Assembly (NCBI GenBank): GCA_030867875.1
Contig: JAOWCC010000655.1
Span: 11,678,269 to 11,742,268 of the forward strand
DNA length: 64,000 nt
Reading direction: 5' to 3'
DNA from: Actinernus sp. WN-2022
Lineage: Eukaryota > Cnidaria > Anthozoa > Actiniaria > Actinernidae
Shown here: positions 26,105 to 47,940 of the stretch, in pieces
How positions within the stretch are numbered: position 1 is the first letter of the stretch
Layout of the letters: every line of letters starts with the position of its first letter
Position numbers and translations under genes: made by a program
Notes under the pieces: generated by a model
The model's input: only the letters and a program-made list of their open reading frames with translations
Database searches by the model: none
Told to the model about the DNA's origin: nothing

Positions 26105-26290
26105 GTTTCGGGGAACAAGGCAACATGCCAAAAAATCCGTTGGGAACAGAAAACAAACTAAAAATATATTGGGGAACAAGGGAACATGAATAGAGGTTTT
26201 AGGGAACAAGGGAACAATTTCCATTTTTCTAAATGGAATAAATTGACTGTTTCCCTGGAAAAATGTTTGGGAACAAGGGAACAAAAGGTA
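26105..26290. repeat. GGGAACAAGGGAACA repeat cluster
   Basis: Several copies of GGGGAACAAGGGAACATG and variants are scattered over about 190 bp, just left of the viral-type cluster. They produce chance ORFs on both strands (for example 26158-26520), which are not called. Confidence 0.6.
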
Positions 26291-26584
26291 ATTTTCGTTG
26301 CTGGTATCGTGCAATTAGTGAAAACCTTACCGACGTTGGTTTGGACCCTAGAGGTTAAAACCCCAATCCGGTTCAGCAGAAATCTCTGTGCACTACTGGG
26401 TGTCAAAGGTAATGAACATGGTATAGATGATATGACAATCCCAGTGTGTTTTGTGCACGGTAGCGGTTGAAAAAAGCTAACAGACATATAACAAAGAAGG
26501 TCCCTGAGTTTCCTAACCATTCCACTCTATTAACTATGTATTTATCAATGTTTAACGTCAGAATGAGGCTAATCCTGATATTAA

Positions 26585-28087
26585 AGATATCAACTATATG
26601 TATATATTATACTTGCGATAGCTTCAATATGTCTTATATGGCAAGAGTTCAAGAAGAAATATCCACACGCTGACTACTCTAAATTTAGAACTCAATCCTC
26701 CGAGTTCAATGGGGAGAGCAATTCGTACGTCATATTCGTAGACAAAGGTCAAGAACGTATAGGCATAGCATATGGTTTATCGGGCTACGAGAACAAGGCC
26801 GGCGTACAAAAACGCATTGATGCAGCATTAGGTGTGGAAGAACCCCAAGAATTCCCACCACCCTTCAGAAGAACTGATTTTAAGTATCCAGTTCCAGCTG
26901 TTCCCTGGGGGAGCACCGCCAAAGACATAGACCCTATCATACGAACTTTGAAGATCTACGTAGCAAAGGATCAGTACTTCATATTGAAACCGCGAGATAT
27001 CTTTAAAGAGCTGGGCTTTGATTTTCCTACCGACACCATCGACGACGAAGACAAAGACAAACAAGCACAAGAATGGTTAGATGCTCTACCGATGAGGCAT
27101 TGGCAACAACAGCTATGCTTTGCCATTTGGTGCGCGACTGCAGGCTGTGGAGTGTCATTCGATGATCATCTTTCAGATGACGCACCAATCATTGACAACA
27201 TTCGTAGCTTTTATCGCTTTCATGTATACTTCACAACCAGGAGAGTACTGTATGAATTGGAAATCAAACTTCCAGACGACTCTATGTTTAATAAGAACAA
27301 TAACACTCCATGGAATGTAGTTGCATATAACATGCTCAGGAAAGAGTTCGGAGTCGATAAAGTTAACTTCGCCTTACGCCGAGCAAGCGATACTGATAAG
27401 ACGTGGGGGTTCGACACCAATGGGCCACTTGATATTCCGGTGCGGTTCTATCGCAATGATATGGCGAAGAAGCAGCACAATTGGTTCGTTCCACAGAAGG
27501 GAAAGGGATTGACAAAGGCTGGGCTAGCCAGAATCAACTTGTCTATAATGGCTTACGTGTATTGTGTCCTAGAACCCCAGGCTACCAACCGCCTCCCAAT
27601 CGTAAGGAAGGCAGCCACAGCCATCAACGTTCAAAATGCCTGCGGTGAAAAGTTGAAAGCTATCATCCGTGAATCGAATCTCCATAGTCTATTGAGATAT
27701 CAAGATGCTCTTCAGAAAACGAAGGTTCGTCTCGACCTAGCGGTTGCCAAGTGGTGTCTGTTAATACCTAGTCGTATGATTATCAACACTGAGATTATAA
27801 ATGGTTATAACAATAAGCTGCAAATTGCAAGTGCGTCAGGCATCTACTTCGGAATAAACTATCATATCAACCTCGATAAAGTAACCCCCTCTATGGAAGG
27901 ACCCCTCTCGAAGAAACAATTACCACACAGTGCAAAGCAACAAGTTCCATCTTCCACACGTAGCAAAAAAGCCCCCCATAGTACCACTGCAGTAGAGAAC
28001 TCACCAAAACCTACTCCACAACACGAGATGAATCTAGCAGTGGTTTCTATTACTGCAGCTGGAACCGCATGGTTGTTGTTTCGCTAA
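26585..28087 (+). CDS. Viral-type ORF A, large protein with N- and C-terminal hydrophobic segments
   Basis: The open frame covers 500 codons from just after a stop at 26582 to TAA at 28085-28087. There is no ATG before 26834. A hydrophobic helix (YVYIILAIASICLIW) lies near the start of the open frame, so the true start is probably upstream in another frame (an ATG-led frame at 26548-26563 is one base off). The middle is a folded, aromatic-rich domain (ALPMRHWQQQLCFAIWCATA, YRFHVYFTTRRVLYEL). A proline/serine/lysine linker follows, then a C-terminal hydrophobic end (VVSITAAGTAWLLFR). Its stop overlaps that of ORF B on the other strand. The function is unknown; a virion membrane or minor structural protein is a guess from position. 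Confidence 0.6.
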   Translation, partial: RYQLYVYIILAIASICLIWQEFKKKYPHADYSKFRTQSSEFNGESNSYVIFVDKGQERIGIAYGLSGYENKAGVQKRIDAALGVEEPQEFPPPFRRTDFKYPVPAVPWGSTAKDIDPIIRTLKIYVAKDQYFILKPRDIFKELGFDFPTDTIDDEDKDKQAQEWLDALPMRHWQQQLCFAIWCATAGCGVSFDDHLSDDAPIIDNIRSFYRFHVYFTTRRVLYELEIKLPDDSMFNKNNNTPWNVVAYNMLRKEFGVDKVNFALRRASDTDKTWGFDTNGPLDIPVRFYRNDMAKKQHNWFVPQKGKGLTKAGLARINLSIMAYVYCVLEPQATNRLPIVRKAATAINVQNACGEKLKAIIRESNLHSLLRYQDALQKTKVRLDLAVAKWCLLIPSRMIINTEIINGYNNKLQIASASGIYFGINYHINLDKVTPSMEGPLSKKQLPHSAKQQVPSSTRSKKAPHSTTAVENSPKPTPQHEMNLAVVSITAAGTAWLLFR

Positions 28088-29199
28088 CGTTGTTTGTATT
28101 GCTCTATTACGAACACAACTACAGCCACGATTAATAACCAAGCATTATTTGCTAGGAATCCCACGACGTCACCAGCCATACTAAATATGAAGCCTGCAAT
28201 TGGTCCAATCATCGTAGGTAGAATCTTCCCCAGCTTTTTTCCTATTGCTTTTAACGCTTTGGCAACATCTTTGGCAGCATCTTTTGCAATGTCAGCCAAG
28301 CCCTTTGGCAGAGCGGGAATGACCTTCGACAGATTGGAAACTATTACACCAATCACGGTACCCACTACAGCCAGTACGCTAGTTATACCAACCCCGTACT
28401 TCTTGAAAATCGCTTTGACCCTATCGCGAAGGGGCATACGTTCTTGTAGGGCTTCTTCTCTGCTTTCTAGTAATTCTATTTTGTTACGGATGGTGGTTAT
28501 CTCGTTCTTAGCTGCTTCTTTCTGAGGCTCGGTCGATGTAGGGGCATTGAGTATACCTTCTTCTAGCTTGAGATGCTCATCAAATTTTTGCTTAGCCAGG
28601 ATGACTTCCTGTACTACCTCTTCGTTCGTAGGCCCTAGAGCTCTTTTGAGGTCCTTACCCATCCTTTTATATCTACCACCCTTCATAGTGGTTAAAGGGA
28701 TAGGTTTCTCTTCGCTTTCGAACGCGTAGAGGTAGGTTCTACCTTCGGAGATGGTTGCTATCTCAAGTACGCCCCGAATCCCTACATCCTCATAGTATTC
28801 CCAGACGGTCTCGAACATCATCTGTTTTGCACCTTCTGACAAGTCTTGTCTGAAGAGTACATTTCGAGAACTAAATTTTGGAGGAACTTTCGAAGCGAGG
28901 ATTTTTTCCAAGAGGACATCATTCGAATCTTTCGAAGCGAGGATTTCCTCTAAAATGTCATCGTCATTCGAAAACGAGGTTTCCTGAGTCTTTGGCCCAG
29001 CACCTTTTTTGTTATAGTCATGTAGGGTTTTCATTTGGATATGCTCATCTGGATTCGTACTTGAGACATCTGGGAAAATTGAGCTCCATTCATCCATGTC
29101 AAGAGTATCATCATCCGCATAGTCATAGTCTTCACCTGCTTCACCTGCTTCAGCTCCACCAGGACTTTCCTCAGTTGGGTCAACCTCGACATCACCCAT
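28084..29199 (-). CDS. Viral-type ORF B, acidic/coiled-coil/membrane protein
   Basis: The chosen start is ATG at 29199 (MGDVEVDPTEE), giving 371 residues; the frame is open further upstream, but that part overlaps the capsid gene. The N-terminus is very acidic (YDYADDDTLDMDEW). A coiled coil lies around 205-265. Near 269-290 is a hydrophobic segment (VLAVVGTVIGVIVSNL), then an alanine/lysine-rich amphipathic stretch (291-329), then a hydrophobic C-terminus (330-366) ending EQYKQR. It runs convergent with ORF A (stops overlap by 3-4 bases) and divergent from the capsid gene, 34 bases apart. It is probably a virion-membrane or membrane-remodelling protein; that is inference only. Confidence 0.6.
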   Translation of the reverse strand: MGDVEVDPTEESPGGAEAGEAGEDYDYADDDTLDMDEWSSIFPDVSSTNPDEHIQMKTLHDYNKKGAGPKTQETSFSNDDDILEEILASKDSNDVLLEKILASKVPPKFSSRNVLFRQDLSEGAKQMMFETVWEYYEDVGIRGVLEIATISEGRTYLYAFESEEKPIPLTTMKGGRYKRMGKDLKRALGPTNEEVVQEVILAKQKFDEHLKLEEGILNAPTSTEPQKEAAKNEITTIRNKIELLESREEALQERMPLRDRVKAIFKKYGVGITSVLAVVGTVIGVIVSNLSKVIPALPKGLADIAKDAAKDVAKALKAIGKKLGKILPTMIGPIAGFIFSMAGDVVGFLANNAWLLIVAVVVFVIEQYKQR

Positions 29200-29233
29200 A
29201 TTGAACTTAACTATATATCTTGCTATATTCAAT
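29200..29233. promoter_or_regulatory. 34-bp divergent start region
   Basis: This gap separates the ATG of ORF B (minus, 29199) from the chosen ATG of the capsid gene (plus, 29234). It contains a TATATAT run at 29212-29218. It probably serves both directions as 5' UTR or core promoter, although the element's transcription start sites are unknown. Confidence 0.35.
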
Positions 29234-30467
29234 ATGATATCGTCGAAGCTAGTTCCCGAACGAGCACGAAGATACCCTCGAGCACTAAAAGTTCCACGAA
29301 CCCTATATAGGAAAACTTTCACCCCATCATCTGCCAACCCAGGAGAGACACTATGTGGAAGTACCAACACTAGGAGAAAACATCGTACTAGTACCTGGTA
29401 GCTTAGCACTATTGGGTGACATTGCATTGTCTGGTGGACATGCCAACAATCGTGTTGTAGCCAATGTCGGACGCTGCTTGGTAGTACATCGAGTTTGCAA
29501 AATGGGTGCTGAAATAGTAGAAGACACTGCTCGGTCAGATCTCCTACAGACATATTCCGATATATACCTATCTACAAAGGAGAGAGAAGCTAGAACACAA
29601 CAAGGTATCCAATCAGATAATACAAACAAGCTACGCTCAAAGGCTGGTGATGCAAGCACTTCGGATACTGGAGAAAACGCGCTCCTAGTTGCATATGGTT
29701 CTAAATATAGAATTCCGTTGGATGTTGATATTATGACACAACATGGAGTTCTGTATCCCCACGCCCTACAAGACACTATTTTATTCGAGTTGACTTTAGC
29801 ACCCGCTGTTGACATAGTGGTTGGATCAGACTCCACAAAGATAGGTACGTACAAGCTTAACAACATACAGTTAGAATATGAAGCAATCAAAAATGAAACT
29901 CTAGCTAGGCAAGCACTTAACGCATACGAAACAGGTACTGCTTTCCTATACAACCACGCTGTTCACTTCAAGACCGTACCTATCGCCAAGGCATCAGATA
30001 CTTTGATATCTCAGAACATCAATGTTCCACGACGATCCTTTGCTGGGCTACTTCTACTATTCGTGGATCCACATACCGCCGGTACGCGGGATAGCGAAGC
30101 ATTCTCAAATCCTGGTATTTCGAAGATAGAGGTAGATGTCAACGGGGTTCCAAACAGATTCTTTCCAGGAGGTATGCTACCACCAGATTTCTGGGAGGCT
30201 GCAAAAGGATGGTTTGCCACATCGACTACTTCTATGACTCCTACCAAATTTCACAACAACAGATTCGCCATTCTAGTTGATTGTCGCACAGCAAAAGATT
30301 CCGCTGTTCATGGTGATGGTATGGCTCAAACAGGTGGTGGAAAAGACATCGACATTCGTATACATAGGCCCGCAAACGGTAGTGGAAACGTAAACATGCA
30401 TATCTACGTCCTTGCAGATGCTCAGCTCACGATATTGAACGGAGCACTACAGAATATAACATACTAA
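29234..30467 (+). CDS. Probable double jelly-roll major capsid protein (frameshifted)
   Basis: The main frame is open from 29289 to TAA (30465-30467) and gives about 370 residues from the GTG at 29355, with no ATG before residue 50. A second frame starts with ATG at 29234 and is clearly protein-like until about 29345-29355, where it must shift by one base to join the main frame. The main part is beta-rich (VLVPGSLALLGDIALSGGHA; FLYNHAVHFK; RFAILVDCR; NMHIYVLADAQLTIL), as expected of a capsid fold. It lies immediately before the packaging ATPase, the usual bamfordvirus order. At roughly 410 residues it is short for this class. The capsid assignment rests on family impression and context, not a search. 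Confidence 0.55.
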
Positions 30468-31087
30468 TGGATTCCCTGGTAGAACACATCCCATTCAACG
30501 CACTCATAGTAGGTCCAACAAACTGCGGAAAAACGGCATTTCTCATAGAGCAGCTTCGTGGAGCATTTCGTGGTAAGTTTGCCTATATAGTATTAGTATG
30601 CCCCACGTATGCCCATAACAAAACCTATCGCGGATTTGCCAATCGAGATCCACACTTCTATATCGTATCTCCACCACAGGATACTATCAATGCCGCATTG
30701 CATGTTTGTGCAACCTTTTGGGCTGGAACCAATACCCTACTGATTCTCGATGATTGTGCCGCCTCAAAAGACGTAAAAAGAAGAACCGACAAGCTCGTGG
30801 ATTTGGCATTCTCTGCTCGCCATATCGGTATTTCAGTTTGGGTGCTCTCCCAACAATTAACAAGCATATGCAAACCTTTCCGCGAAAACGTAGCTGTTGT
30901 AGTTGCCTTTCACACCGCGTCGGCTATAGATGGAAAAAGGCTATTCGAGGACTATGGAGGCTCACAAGAAGGCGGTGAGTTACAAGCAGTGCTCCGGTCC
31001 CACAAGTTCGCTCGCATATGCTTTTGTTTACGACATCCTTTTGCAGTAGTGTTAGAGCTACCCGCACCTACATCATATCATGGATGA
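30467..31087 (+). CDS. Genome-packaging ATPase (A32/FtsK-HerA type)
   Basis: 206 residues. Walker A is GPTNCGKT at 16-23, Walker B is LLILDD at 91-96, and a downstream VLSQQ at 127-131 fits the glutamine motif of FtsK-HerA packaging ATPases. The ATG overlaps the capsid stop (TAATG) and the end overlaps the next gene by 8 bases, so the genes are translationally packed without introns. In Polinton-like viruses, virophages and NCLDVs this enzyme drives DNA into capsids. The frame is intact although its neighbours are damaged. This is the best-supported gene of the cluster. Confidence 0.75.
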   Translation: MDSLVEHIPFNALIVGPTNCGKTAFLIEQLRGAFRGKFAYIVLVCPTYAHNKTYRGFANRDPHFYIVSPPQDTINAALHVCATFWAGTNTLLILDDCAASKDVKRRTDKLVDLAFSARHIGISVWVLSQQLTSICKPFRENVAVVVAFHTASAIDGKRLFEDYGGSQEGGELQAVLRSHKFARICFCLRHPFAVVLELPAPTSYHG

Positions 31088-31652
31088 TAACGAAATACTT
31101 GAGCTACTAGGTGAGGATGTAACAGGCCCACCACCCAAAACAGAGGACGCGTGTTCATCTACAATAGACAACCGGGAAACACTTTCCATTTTGGCTGCAA
31201 CAGATACCACAAAAGAATATCTAGGAAAAAAATTATCTCTAGGAGATATTTCTAGACTACCTGAAAAAGAAGTAGATAGATTGTATAGAAGATATCAGGC
31301 CGTGCTAGCTCAGCAAATAACAGGAAGCTTAGTCGATGGTGTGATGCGTCTAGCTACCCGATTAGTTGCTTACCTAGTCCCTATAGATTCTCAAGAAGCA
31401 CTTCTGCAAGACCTACAAGAAGACCATCTAGTCCGTAACGAGATAAGTGCGGCGACTGGCTTGTTATCACTTAAAGCAGGTCGCTTTGTAGCGTTAGCTA
31501 GCGTCTTGTTCCACGTATCTGGTCACATAGTTATTCCTGTTACCTCTGCTACGACACCTATTGAACCTTCACATACACCTACTATATCGAAGCAAGATGG
31601 AGGAACAAACGGATCGGATAACTGCAGATCCTCCGAAGACTTCACCGACTGA
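31080..31652 (+). CDS. Viral-type ORF, 190 aa, unknown
   Basis: ATG at 31080 overlaps the ATPase stop. The N-terminal third is acidic (DDNEILELLGEDV). A charged helical region follows (KKLSLGDISRLPEKEVDRLY), then two moderately hydrophobic stretches (DGVMRLATRLVAYLV and RFVALASVLFHVSGHIV). The C-terminal tail is threonine/serine-rich. It overlaps the start of the next gene by about 56 bases. Gene position suggests a morphogenesis or minor virion protein; no domain is recognised. Confidence 0.5.
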   Translation: MDDNEILELLGEDVTGPPPKTEDACSSTIDNRETLSILAATDTTKEYLGKKLSLGDISRLPEKEVDRLYRRYQAVLAQQITGSLVDGVMRLATRLVAYLVPIDSQEALLQDLQEDHLVRNEISAATGLLSLKAGRFVALASVLFHVSGHIVIPVTSATTPIEPSHTPTISKQDGGTNGSDNCRSSEDFTD

Positions 31653-31964
31653 GAAAAAAGAAAAAATCAAAAGCGTGTTGCTGCTGGAAAAGCATTGGCG
31701 ATAAGCAACAAACTTGCCAGGGAGGCTCAAAAGCGGGAGTTGGAGAGTGAAAAAGAATCGTCGAAAGAAACCGACGTTGGAGGAAGCTGGCCAAAAAGTG
31801 TGTCTACCAACACTACTCTAACAGCTATTGGCGTAGGTGCTGCATTGGTAGGGGCGTACTATCAATATAGAAGATACAGAGACGATACCTCTAAGGATAT
31901 TAGTACGATACGACCCGCTAGTCCAGTAGAGACTACGAAGGTAGCATTGCCGGATATGGAGTAG
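31597..31964 (+). pseudogene. Viral-type small membrane protein, frameshifted in an A-run
   Basis: ATG at 31597 opens MEEQTDRITADPPKTSPTEK, which then runs out of frame at TAA near 31700. The adjacent frame, open from 31653, reads RKNQKRVAAGKALAISNKLA and continues to TAG at 31962-31964. A one-base indel within the A-rich tract at about 31653-31667 explains both. The product would have a basic helical N-terminal half and one transmembrane helix (TLTAIGVGAALVGAYYQYRR) near the C-terminus. Sequencing error, decay or programmed slippage in the A-run are all possible. Confidence 0.5.
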
Positions 31965-32014
31965 GGTGGTACGCCATTTGAAGACTAGAACCATAGGTTA
32001 TATGTCATAGTAGG

Positions 32015-32236
32015 ATGGTAGAGAACAAATTGATGAAAGCGGTAACTGATGCTGCTATAGTTACTGGGCTTGCTACAGGCATAGGTTGGATTGCAAGAAA
32101 GGCCATTAAGGAACCTATGCTCAACGACCCTTCTGCTTCTATAGTGAATTACGTGAAGTGGACGGCCGTGTTAGCTGGTAGCATAGCTGCAAAGCAATAT
32201 CTCGAGGACAAAAAATACATACCAGCTGATTTGTAG
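32015..32236 (+). CDS. Viral-type small protein with two hydrophobic helices
   Basis: 73 residues from ATG at 32015 to TAG. Hydrophobic segments are AIVTGLATGIGWIARKA and YVKWTAVLAGSIAAKQYL, joined by a short polar loop, with a charged C-terminus (EDKKYIPADL). It follows 50 bases after the preceding gene and ends 8 bases before the next ATG. It could be a small virion-membrane or holin-like protein; function not known. Confidence 0.45.
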   Translation: MVENKLMKAVTDAAIVTGLATGIGWIARKAIKEPMLNDPSASIVNYVKWTAVLAGSIAAKQYLEDKKYIPADL

Positions 32237-32244
32237 TACGTATA

Positions 32245-32676
32245 ATGGCATTGGTAGGATTAGGAATGCTCGTTGCCTGAGCTATTTTGAATGCATCGGC
32301 ATTCATTGGTGGGAACATACTCGCTAAGATGCTTTCTGGAAAAGATAGCGAAAGAATTGCTATAGAAAGAGAGAGACACGATAAGGCAGTAGAGAAGGCC
32401 CGGGCAGCCTTAGTTGCTTTCCAGGAGAACCGCGAAATGTTGGCCGACTGGTATCGCAAACGGGCAAATAGGAAGTATGAGGATTCTAAAGGTTTCAGCG
32501 AAGACGACAAGGCTTTTGCGCTATTTGAAGCAGCACACGAGAAAATGCACGAACCCCGTTTATCCGTCTACTATCGACCCTCAAGTGATCAGAAGATGGG
32601 TGAGTTGGTCTACGTCGGAGGGGTACGCTTATTGCTGGCTATGCTGCTAGTCGCTGGCTATAGCTATGCTTTTTAA
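32245..32676 (+). pseudogene. Viral-type ORF with in-frame TGA at codon 12
   Basis: ATG at 32245 begins MALVGLGMLVA and is stopped by TGA at 32278-32280. The same frame then continues AILNASAFIGGNILAKML without a break to TAA at 32674-32676, 144 codons in all. The segments either side of the stop together form a plausible hydrophobic N-terminus. A charged coiled coil (RIAIERERHDKAVEKARAA) and a C-terminal hydrophobic helix follow. The single stop suggests decay by point mutation; readthrough cannot be excluded. Confidence 0.5.
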
Positions 32677-32694
32677 AAACGTTTTTGTTTGGTG

Positions 32695-32787: not shown

Positions 32788-33180
32788 AGAACACGTTCCA
32801 GAAAAGGTCACAATATTCCAAATTGTAAATTATGGTATAATGTTGAGAGTTTACAATAACTTTGACATAATATTGGATTTTTCTGGTACATTCCTACGGT
32901 ACGACCCAAATATCTCTGAATGTTTTTTTCGCCAGTACGTATTCACTTATCAAATTTAAATTGTGTCATCGACACTATAAGATATGCTTCACAATCATCT
33001 GATAAATTCATCAGTTTCTTACCAAAGTAAGATATTCGGTGGATTATATTTCGGTTCAGTCCTAGCATTGTACCACTAGGAACTTTTTAAAGTATTATTT
33101 TTGTGAATCACTAAACTTCAAACCACATGTTTTTAAATCACAGTATTCTCCAACTCGGTTTATCAGACTTATATACCTGC

Positions 33181-33447
33181 GTGTTTGGTAATTACCAAAC
33201 TCAGCCCTGCGTGTTCAGTATTTACCAGACTCAGTCCTGTGTGTTCGGTAATTACCAGACTAGGTCCTGTGTGTTTGGTAATTACCAGACTCAGTCCTGT
33301 GTGTTCGGTAATTACCAAACTCAGCCCTGCGTGTTCAGTATTTACCAGACTCAGTCCTGTGTGTTTGGTAATTACCAGACTCAGTCCTGCGTGTTTGGTA
33401 ATTACCAGACTCAGTCCTGCGTGTTTTCGGTAATTACCAAACTCAGA
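33181..33447 (+). repeat. 30-bp minisatellite, nine units (left array)
   Basis: GTGTTCGGTAATTACCAGAC followed by TCAGTCCTGT is repeated about nine times. Units 1-2 and 5-6 share the same variants, so some expansion was by pairs. Because 30 is divisible by three, both strands stay open and give false repeat-protein ORFs. Confidence 0.9.
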
Positions 33448-35384
33448 CTTGTGACAAAGTTTTGACTGTATACGAACAATCACTTTGCTAATTATAACGC
33501 TACTTCAAATTTCTGTTGCACTCACAACATGACTTGGATTCAGACATTTCTGCTGCACTCACAGGAAGACCAAATTGATGCATTGATATTTGATATATTA
33601 GGTGAGGGGATGAAAACTGAAAAAATAGTCTGAAAATTACCATAGACAACGCAGGCTTTCGTTAAGTTTTATCAATATTAATTTTCAGGAGACATAATCC
33701 GATATCCTAGGCTATGGTTAGGAGGGAAAGTTTTAACAGTCCTAACCTACAACTGAACCCAGAGGTGCTAGCAGAAATTAAGTATCTCCGTCTTGGTTTA
33801 CTACTAAGACAGAGAGAGACCTCCCCGGAGACCCCTCCCTGTCTTGGCTAGCAGGGAAATTTAAGCTGCTCTACAAGTAAATCAAATGTCATGAAATGCT
33901 AGCTAACATTCGACTCATGATTCAACATTTTTCACGAAGAAAGTACGTGAAAAGCAGGCAAACAATCGCATCGAGAAACGTCAGGATTTAGTTGAATATT
34001 TAAAAACAAAATTTCACTCCAGTCTTGTACCTTGAGTTATATATATATATATATTCGGAACTACAATATACTACGTACTTTATATTGGTCATAAACAATC
34101 ATGATCGGTACTCGAAATATATCGTCAGACTTCAGTTGCTTTTGCTTGCTTTCTTGTAGATAACCGTTGATTATACGAATGAAATGACTCACACCACAGT
34201 TCAGTGACCTTACACCGCGTTACAGTTGAACTAAATTATACCGCTTTCCTCTAAGTAATTTCCAACCTCAAATCTCTGTCATAGCGCAAAAACTACGAAA
34301 ACTTACCTTCAATGTGTGTATGCAATCTGACGAATCCTATGAAGACCAAGGTTTATAAGAAGCAAATGGCGATCAGAAAATGCCGCCATGAACCTGAAGT
34401 TATATTCACGTTAGATCTGTCTTTTGTTAGTATTCAAATTTTGCGCGCTTTCAATAACACTAGTCCGTAATCCGATTGGTTAAAGTTGACAGTTCGCATC
34501 AGCGGATATTAAATTTCGGCTGTGAGGTGTTTTCACATCTACATGTGACGTTCTGGAGCCATCGGGCAAACTGTGGATATTCAAATTGTATTCAAGAAGG
34601 CAACCTATGCTTCTAAACCTCCCCGGACCCTGTACAACCGAAAGCAATATTTATCAGATGGCCAGAGAACAATAATGCGAAACAGTATTCCAGGGAATGA
34701 TGTTTCTGTGGACTTAGAGCGTGACTCTCCTGCTGATCTCCCAGCCGTCTACGTGACTCCCCCATGCATTGCCCAGCCGCCGATCCGACTTCGTCTTTAA
34801 CACGCCGCTTTACAACTAAAGGTTTAAACATGGCCAGAGAACAATAACGCGAAAACGTATTCCTGGGAATGATGTTTCTGTCGGGTCTTAGAGCGTGACA
34901 CCCCTTCGTCTTTAATACGCCGCTTTACAACTAGAGGTACACGCTTACTAAAGCCAACAGACAGAACAGATGTTTGATCATGTTTCTACGACAAATTCTA
35001 CCGGTAAATCACGTATCAGTGAGATATTGTGAAGATTCCTGCGATATGTTTTATTGAGTGTCAGCGCCAACTGTCAAAGTTAATTCGAAGGAACATTATT
35101 ACTGAACAACCAAAACAATAACCGCGAGTGTAACCGTACAGTCCCATGAGTTACAAGATCATGTATTACAAGACTGAGCGAGAAGTTGATTCATCAAGAG
35201 TAAAGGAAAACCTTTCGGAGTCCAACCTTTCTTCATAATTCATATACCACAGACCACAGAGATTACAAACGTCCAGCAATTTTACTGCTTTCATTCACAA
35301 GCTTCAACAACTTTTCGACCACTTAAATCAATAATTCGCCATTACCTCATTGCAAATTGTTTGGTACTTTACCAAAACACAGGT

Positions 35385-35777
35385 CCGAGTTTGATAATTA
35401 CCGAACACACAGGTCTGAGTCTGGTAATTACCGAACACACAGCTCTGAGTCTAGTAATTACCGAACACGCAGGACTGAGGTCTGAGTCTGGTAATCAGGA
35501 GTACCGAACACGCAGGTCTGAGTTTGGTAATTACCGAACACACAGGACTGAGTTTCGTAATTACCGAACACACAGATCTGAGTCTGGTAATTACCGAACA
35601 CACAGCTCTGAGTCTGGTAATTACCGAACACGCAGGACTGAGGTCTGAGTCTGGTAATTACCGAACACACAGGACTGAGGTCTGAGTCTGGTAATTACCG
35701 AACACACAGGACTGAGGTCTGAGTCTGGTAATTACCGAACACACAGCTCTGAGTCTGGTAATTACCGAACACGCAGG
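35385..35777 (-). repeat. 30-bp minisatellite, about 13 units (right array, inverted)
   Basis: The same unit as at 33181-33447 but on the other strand (CCGAACACACAGGACTGAGT then CTGGTAATTA), with some units extended by a GACTGAGGT insertion. It mirrors the left array within the surrounding element. Confidence 0.9.
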
Positions 35778-47613: not shown

Positions 47614-47940
47614 TATGGAGAAACTATGGGACAATAGTCCAGTTTCGTATTCGAAAATTACCGTTGAATACAAGGACTACAGACGCATGTACGCATGGTG
47701 ATCTTATTTGTCACCACCACATCGGCTGACCATACGGTCTACTTCGATCAACCTATTTGTATCCACAACATTTCGCTAGTTGAGGTCACTTTTGAGAACA
47801 GTTGGTTGAACCTAGAAAAGATGGCTTCGTTCTGGTGGGATACCGGAGGTGTGGGTTTTCCACATAGTATTGCTGCTGGACACCATGATGTGACAAGCAT
47901 TCAAGTATATTTAAACCCCGCAATCGAAAATACAAGCTGA
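47614..47940 (+). pseudogene. Possible second viral-type structural gene remnant
   Basis: A short frame from ATG at 47614 (MEKLWDNSPVSYSK) stops at 47698. Then a frame from 47695 reads SADHTVYFDQPICIHNISLV, EVTFENSWLNLEKMASFWWD and ends IENTS at TGA. The beta-strand-like pattern with a FENSWLN core resembles small capsid-associated proteins of Polinton-like elements as I remember them; that is an impression only. No intron signals separate the frames, so it looks like decayed intronless DNA. Confidence 0.3.

Follow-up and report, generated by a model that had tools for sequence, protein, structure and literature searches.

A probable truncated, decayed Polinton/Maverick copy in the genome of Actinernus sp. 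WN-2022 and its relatives with near-palindromic termini

The Actinernus locus and the closest described elements

The gene cluster considered here lies at positions 26585-32676 of a 64,000-nucleotide stretch of the genome of the actiniarian Actinernus sp. WN-2022 (contig JAOWCC010000655.1, positions 11,678,269 to 11,742,268; the whole stretch is referred to as the window), and its closest described counterparts are the Polintons or Mavericks, the Polinton-like viruses (PLV) and the mavirus-type virophages. Nearly all Polintons carry a cysteine maturation protease, while hairpin-ended genomes with terminal palindromes able to fold are found in parvoviruses and poxviruses. The adintoviruses, to which the elements presented below are likened by description and not by sequence, are animal-linked viruses with a family-B DNA polymerase (PolB) and an integrase. 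Vertebrate Mavericks are elements of ~16 kb with PolB, a retroviral-type (rve) integrase, a packaging ATPase, a double jelly-roll capsid protein, inverted repeats with (AGT)2//(ACT)2 ends and a 6-bp target duplication, and in these elements the ATPase gene belongs to the PolB module and the capsid genes to a module with integrase and protease (Barreat and Katzourakis 2021, PMC8097293). Nearly all PLV, with one exception, are devoid of a retroviral-type integrase, and they combine a core of capsid protein and ATPase with the lack of a recognised protease (Yutin 2015, PMC4642659). Mavirus-type virophages possess PolB and rve (PMC4642659), and 5-6-bp target duplications are known for mavirus and Mavericks (PMC8547959). 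A legend of PMC11071308 mentions a Stylophora coral adintovirus.

The window cluster is, with a probability of about 0.93, a Polinton/Maverick copy that is truncated, decayed and mosaic, and the same genome contains hundreds of copies of the family. The relatives are elements of ~15.8-16.0 kb with a PolB of the viral/organellar type, a retroviral-type integrase, inverted repeats with (AGT)2//(ACT)2 ends and 5-bp target duplications, and the window genes themselves specify an A32-type packaging ATPase, a double jelly-roll capsid protein and further, small proteins. In size, enzymes, capsid protein, inverted repeats and end motif these elements agree with the vertebrate Mavericks, from which they differ in the length of the target duplication (5 rather than 6 bp), in the position of the capsid gene directly before the ATPase gene, in their palindromic termini, in the F-box/ankyrin and TFIIB-like genes of one lineage, and in that no protease was recognised. 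They share PolB, rve and the target duplication length with mavirus-type virophages, and the capsid protein and ATPase core, again with no recognised protease, with PLV, but differ from the latter in the retroviral-type integrase of the window copy's relatives. As these relatives have rve, the original prediction of the structural half of a Polinton-like virus holds for the virion-building half of a Polinton-type element and not for a PLV in the sense of Yutin 2015, and Polinton/Maverick is the better-fitting designation. The window feature is a viral fossil, ordinary in kind, for which no new mechanism is needed; interest is raised by the hairpin termini, the 5-bp duplications, the TFIIB-like gene and the joint difference of polymerase and termini between two lineages, and by a family that comprises, in a 1.39-Gb genome, ~280 element-equivalents with one exact terminal sequence and whose virion genes appear to recombine between distant lineages.

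The window cluster and its relatives in the same genome

The relatives were identified in the 1.39-Gb assembly, in which 150 of 4554 first-look ATPase candidates were scored; these comprised the window itself and 149 other places at 87-96% identity. By manual count of this table, a stop lies inside 20 of the 150 copies, and 32 of them are identical in score, span and frame length, which is a sign of recent amplification. Two of these 32, copies A (C888) and B (C813), each read from two stretches, measure 15,764 and 15,765 bp, possess inverted repeats of 334-335 bp (99.1% alike) and carry the same genes. The plan of copy A, with 15 frames, runs through F-box/ankyrin, TFIIB-like, g5, g6, g7, g8, capsid, ATPase, g11, g12 and g13 genes to the integrase (Pfam rve 2e-10; the integrase of the relatives matches the HIV integrase core at 0.0023) and PolB (DNA_pol_B_2 1.1e-11), and one of g4 and g5, which overlap on opposite strands, may be no gene. 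A cysteine maturation protease was not found among the 15 frames by Pfam at E<=0.5, a search that could miss a divergent one.

Two further relatives were each read over 9.9 kb. The element C1706 (82954240-82970223; 15,984 bp including an inserted element) has termini at both ends, the target duplication tttcg, an ATPase 94% identical to that of the window and an integrase 84.5% identical to that of copy A (rve 2.3e-8), while C790, the nearest copy read, with an ATPase 96% identical to that of the window, is degraded. The order g7-g13 is the same in the window, A and B, and parts of it are found in C790 and C1706. The window thus holds g7-g13, the virion-gene middle third of the 15-frame element plan, and because these seven genes are collinear with those of copy A and the ATPase is under purifying selection, the cluster is not a product of chance. 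The compact intronless frames at 26585-32676 were confirmed in the open-frame list of the window, and the remnants of the element are the following (aa, amino acids):

26225..26431, plus strand: fragment of g6 (candidate minor capsid protein), 38% over 78 aa, E 2e-11
26585..28087, plus strand: g7, 500-codon open frame, remnant of the 571-aa protein of copy A in a divergent version
28084..29199, minus strand: g8, ~371 aa with hydrophobic C-terminus, 47% to copy A and 62% to C1706
29198..29353, plus strand: major capsid gene, N-terminal piece in frame 1, 73% over 52 aa to the copy A capsid protein
29343..30467, plus strand: major capsid gene, remainder in another frame (gene broken)
30467..31087, plus strand: A32-type packaging ATPase, Pfam Pox_A32 E 3e-11
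31080..31652, plus strand: g11, 190 aa, 74% to copy A and 81% to C790
31653..31964, plus strand: g12, 103-codon open frame without starting ATG, 52% to copy A and 87% to C790
32015..32236, plus strand: 73-aa open frame between g12 and g13, from the open-frame list alone
32248..32676, plus strand: g13, with in-frame TGA at 32278-32280, 43% to copy A
47692..47928, plus strand: second, separate g6 fragment, 70% over 80 aa, E 2e-33

The packaging ATPase had been recognised in the original prediction by its motifs, and these were read as GPTNCGKT at 16-23 (Walker A), LLILDD at 91-96 (Walker B) and VLSQQ at 126-130, in addition to the Pox_A32 match; in PHROGs the ATPase matched a terminase (4.7e-9). 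The capsid gene that had been proposed to precede it was borne out, as the frame directly before the ATPase folds as a jelly roll, and a double one, in the predicted structure; the span 28084-30467 assigned to it resolves into the minus-strand g8 and a capsid gene at 29198-30467, in which the alignment to the copy A capsid protein splits over two frames (29198-29353 and 29343-30464). Pfam Capsid_N matches 6 of 25 members of the capsid family, that of copy A not being among them. The eight compact intronless genes described earlier are present as frames, but the capsid gene is split and the last gene carries an in-frame TGA. The g7 frame has no ATG at its start, homology to copy A beginning at 26645, and on the right the element is last traceable in g13, where the DNA match to C1706 stops at window position 32679. 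The window copy is decayed, as indicated by the split capsid gene, the stop in g13 and the missing start of g7. A jelly-roll penton at 26585-28087 was rejected, the fold model of g7 being mostly helical, which is weak evidence given a poor model with a pLDDT of only 44. For g8 no Pfam family scored above its cut-off, and PHROGs gave weak tape-measure-like matches. We take g6 to be a candidate minor (single jelly-roll) capsid protein, although neither Pfam nor the PDB sequences yielded a noteworthy match for it; nothing relevant was returned from PDB when the ATPase, the capsid profile or PolB served as sequence query, and none of the 32, 32, 3 and 4 IMG/VR stretches that matched capsid, g7, integrase or PolB patterns, respectively, was confirmed as a relative.

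The observation that neither PolB nor integrase lies near the cluster holds, for enzymes of the Polinton type, across the 64-kb window. No integrase or PolB was found there at E<=1e-3 with copy A queries, a relaxed search gave best E values of 1.0 for the integrase and 4.0 for PolB, and nothing was found with the integrase and PolB pieces of C1706 (best E 0.025). Apart from g7-g13 and the two g6 fragments, the copy A frames had no window match at E<=1e-3, the A-type termini of the relatives had none, and the window copy shows no terminal repeats. The window copy hence lacks both terminal repeats, the right arm with integrase and PolB, and the left arm with the accessory genes and all but fragments of the candidate minor capsid gene.

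Identity between the window and C790 falls from 96% for the ATPase and 92-94% for the capsid protein through 87% for g12 and 81% for g11 to 47-55% for g8 and 33-44% for g7, while g7 of C790 is 73% identical to that of copy A (59.5% in its last part). The window g7 is 36% identical to both A and C1706, reaches 36-37% with its closest counterparts among 120 listed outside proteins (275 homologues in all), and is thus no closer to its relatives in the same genome than to these listed proteins from other public sources. Since g7 reaches 33-44% to C790 while the ATPase shares 96%, the window copy appears mosaic, and the pattern, which is not easily derived from one tree, can be explained if g7 (and part of g8) is recombinant. 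The ratio dN/dS between window and A was 0.05 for the ATPase, 0.16 for the capsid protein, 0.20 for g11 and 0.35 for g8, with no estimate for g7 owing to saturated dS, and 0.13 for the ATPase between window and C790. These low values reflect constraint on the replicating lineage before decay rather than a function for the host.

In the preferred interpretation, the element's own PolB would have copied it, while complete, as a linear genome, the ATPase would have packaged this genome into a double jelly-roll capsid, and the integrase would have inserted it, cutting host DNA with a 5-bp stagger; g7 (and partly g8) would have been swapped for a distant version by recombination between elements before decay, and the window copy would later have lost both arms by deletion or rearrangement. 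It had been proposed that the element was either truncated or belonged to a lineage integrating by another route, and truncation is favoured because relatives with 88-94% identical ATPases carry PolB, rve integrase, inverted terminal repeats and 5-bp target duplications. A separate lineage devoid of PolB and rve integrase from the outset, such as a tyrosine-recombinase PLV or a satellite that borrows the enzymes of other elements, would account for the absence of the relatives' integrase and polymerase types from the window and of either enzyme from the 9.9 kb around C790, but is highly improbable in view of those same 88-94% copies, of the broken capsid and g13 genes and of A-type termini that go unmatched in the window. 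The search for other copies in fact overturned the notion of a cluster standing apart from any larger element with PolB and integrase, as the copies sit in just such an element. Domestication of the capsid gene block for a host function, to which the open ATPase, g8 and g11 frames and the ATPase dN/dS of 0.13 might point, is less probable still: the capsid gene is split, g13 has a stop, g7 has lost its start, 4554 first-look ATPase candidates exist in the genome, and selection on the replicating lineage explains the low dN/dS.

Several points weigh against the truncated Polinton/Maverick copy. A and B are 88% relatives of another subfamily than the window copy, and C790 has neither integrase nor PolB in its 9.9 kb, of which ~2.6 kb extend beyond g12, so that a truncated parent of the window's own lineage is possible. 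Moreover, no protease was recognised in A, the minor capsid protein is a candidate only, the fold model of g7 is poor, and the assignment of protein priming is based solely on the Pfam family and the end motif.

Termini, target duplications and copy number

The exact terminal 18-mer occurs 568 times in forward and 556 times in reverse orientation in the genome (control 0 and 0), as a rule twice per terminus and thus ~4 times per element, so that the 1124 matches would correspond to ~281 element-equivalents bearing it. From the 100 places listed, 24 pairs of ends could be formed, with 5 places left unpaired. A target duplication of exactly 5 bp was present in 19 of the 20 listed elements that were checked (20 of the 24 pairs) and absent from one, and was also present in A, B and C1706. 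All 20 have outer ends of the (AGT)2//(ACT)2 type, ten with 346-bp termini at both ends. The C1706 terminal 17-mer occurs 45 + 39 times (control 0).

The termini themselves are near-palindromes of 134-316 bp (L031:1133-1365, L077:6128-6424, L036:241-556 and L078:31-164), and each of the three that were folded gives a single hairpin. The free energies were -115.2 kcal/mol (z -28.6) for the terminal 233 bp of copy A as a single strand of 234 nt, -55.9 kcal/mol (z -18.5) for the shorter, 134-bp class and -113.9 kcal/mol (z -22.2) for the 297-bp right terminus of C1706. The terminal arms of C1706 are 35-56% identical to A-type arms, which is about chance apart from the first bases, and termini that fold into hairpins are thereby seen in two lineages whose terminal sequences are unrelated and whose polymerases differ. 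The C1706 PolB pieces (L077:3911-6093) differ from the PolB of copy A, contain an Endonuclease_7 domain (3.8e-5) and match DNA_pol_B_2 weakly (0.0052 in one piece, below the cut-off); endonuclease insertions in Polinton polymerases are already known (PMC11071308). Polymerase and termini differ together between C1706 and A, though integrase and ATPase are 84-88% identical.

The spacing between outer and inner terminal motifs agrees within 1 bp between both ends in all 23 listed pairs with both inner copies seen, one of the 24 pairs lacking one, and falls into classes of 115-116 (4 pairs), 210-211 (4) and 214-215 (15). Shuffling gave a mean of 11.2 matching pairs and reached 23 in 0 of 100,000 trials, a significance that is overstated as the elements are related; the real weight of the result is that a change of class struck both ends each time. 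In the A-type classes the two arms of one palindrome agree at 92-98%, and a comparison of arms between the 233 and the 134 class over the first 55 bases gives 78-87%, which means that the two arms changed together in this part, the 233 and 228 classes (89-98%) being too similar there to be informative. The arms of C1706 are only 79-82% alike within the palindrome, which falls short of the 95% between the outer arms at its two ends, so that this copy gives no indication of recent arm-to-arm correction.

Of 25 termini taken from 13 elements, 24 had the same orientation (233-bp class 16/16, 228-bp class 3/4, 134-bp class 5/5, the last resting on small differences against copy A, 0.489 vs 0.442 and 0.491 vs 0.365); the exception, the right terminus of C280, looks partly converted from arm to arm. 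An AAV-like 50:50 flip-flop was accordingly rejected. The folding of the termini into single hairpins is what AAV-like rolling-hairpin replication, with ends inverted every round, would lead one to expect, but this mode is disfavoured by the uniform orientation and appears very unlikely, as C280 looks more like arm-to-arm conversion and the (AGT)2 ends fit protein priming; rare inversions of a terminus are possible. The uniform orientation argues for end-primed replication, the hairpin perhaps being used in some other step. We tentatively suggest, as a reading that is more doubtful than probable, a Polinton lineage with a linear genome whose self-folding hairpin ends are kept as structure and not as sequence. 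A protein primer would initiate replication at the (AGT)2 end, and the terminal palindrome would extrude into a cruciform or fold-back that serves to repair or resolve the end or to correct one arm against the other. Nuclease domains carried by the polymerase as fusions, such as the Endonuclease VII-like domain of one lineage, would possibly act on the folded end, and polymerase and matching termini would be exchanged jointly while capsid, ATPase and integrase genes stay, as one lineage pair suggests.

The elements are set apart from parvoviruses and poxviruses by the single orientation of 24 of 25 termini, the integrase-type target duplications and the protein-priming end motif. Hairpin or palindromic Polinton termini were not described in the titles and abstract beginnings covered by a literature search, and neither 'hairpin' nor 'palindrom' occurs in the text of the vertebrate Maverick paper (PMC8097293). 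Hairpins in lineages with unrelated terminal sequences offer a link, open to testing, between Polintons with protein priming and DNA viruses with hairpin ends.

Accessory genes and further observations

An F-box/ankyrin protein is encoded beside the left terminus of copy A (L031:1479-2153; Ank_2 1.5e-16, F-box 7.6e-7). The g3 gene of copy A (L031:2883-3872) combines a zinc-ribbon-like start with TFIIB repeats, according to weak matches to TFIIB models (NCBIfam 3.8e-5, Pfam 0.0047) and to human TFIIB in PDB (0.015), all three below curated cut-offs, and has only 3 relatives, at 36-39%, in a large protein set. This TFIIB-like gene seems accessory, because the 9.9 kb read from C1706, the left end of that element included, yielded no such gene; a TFIIB gene in a Polinton was not described in the titles and abstract beginnings that were searched.

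The two g6 fragments lie 21 kb apart in the window, and their BLAST pieces against copy A abut at L031:4948/4949; the fragment at 26225..26431 is oriented opposite to g6 in the relatives, and the pair reflects either a rearrangement or two different insertions. Outside the cluster, tandem arrays of 30-bp units at 33176-33446 and 35359-35777 of the window are mutually inverted copies ~2 kb apart. The insertion inside the C1706 Polinton (L077:972-3342), presumably Penelope-like, has ~600-bp inverted repeats (93.6%) and encodes reverse transcriptase and GIY-YIG domains.

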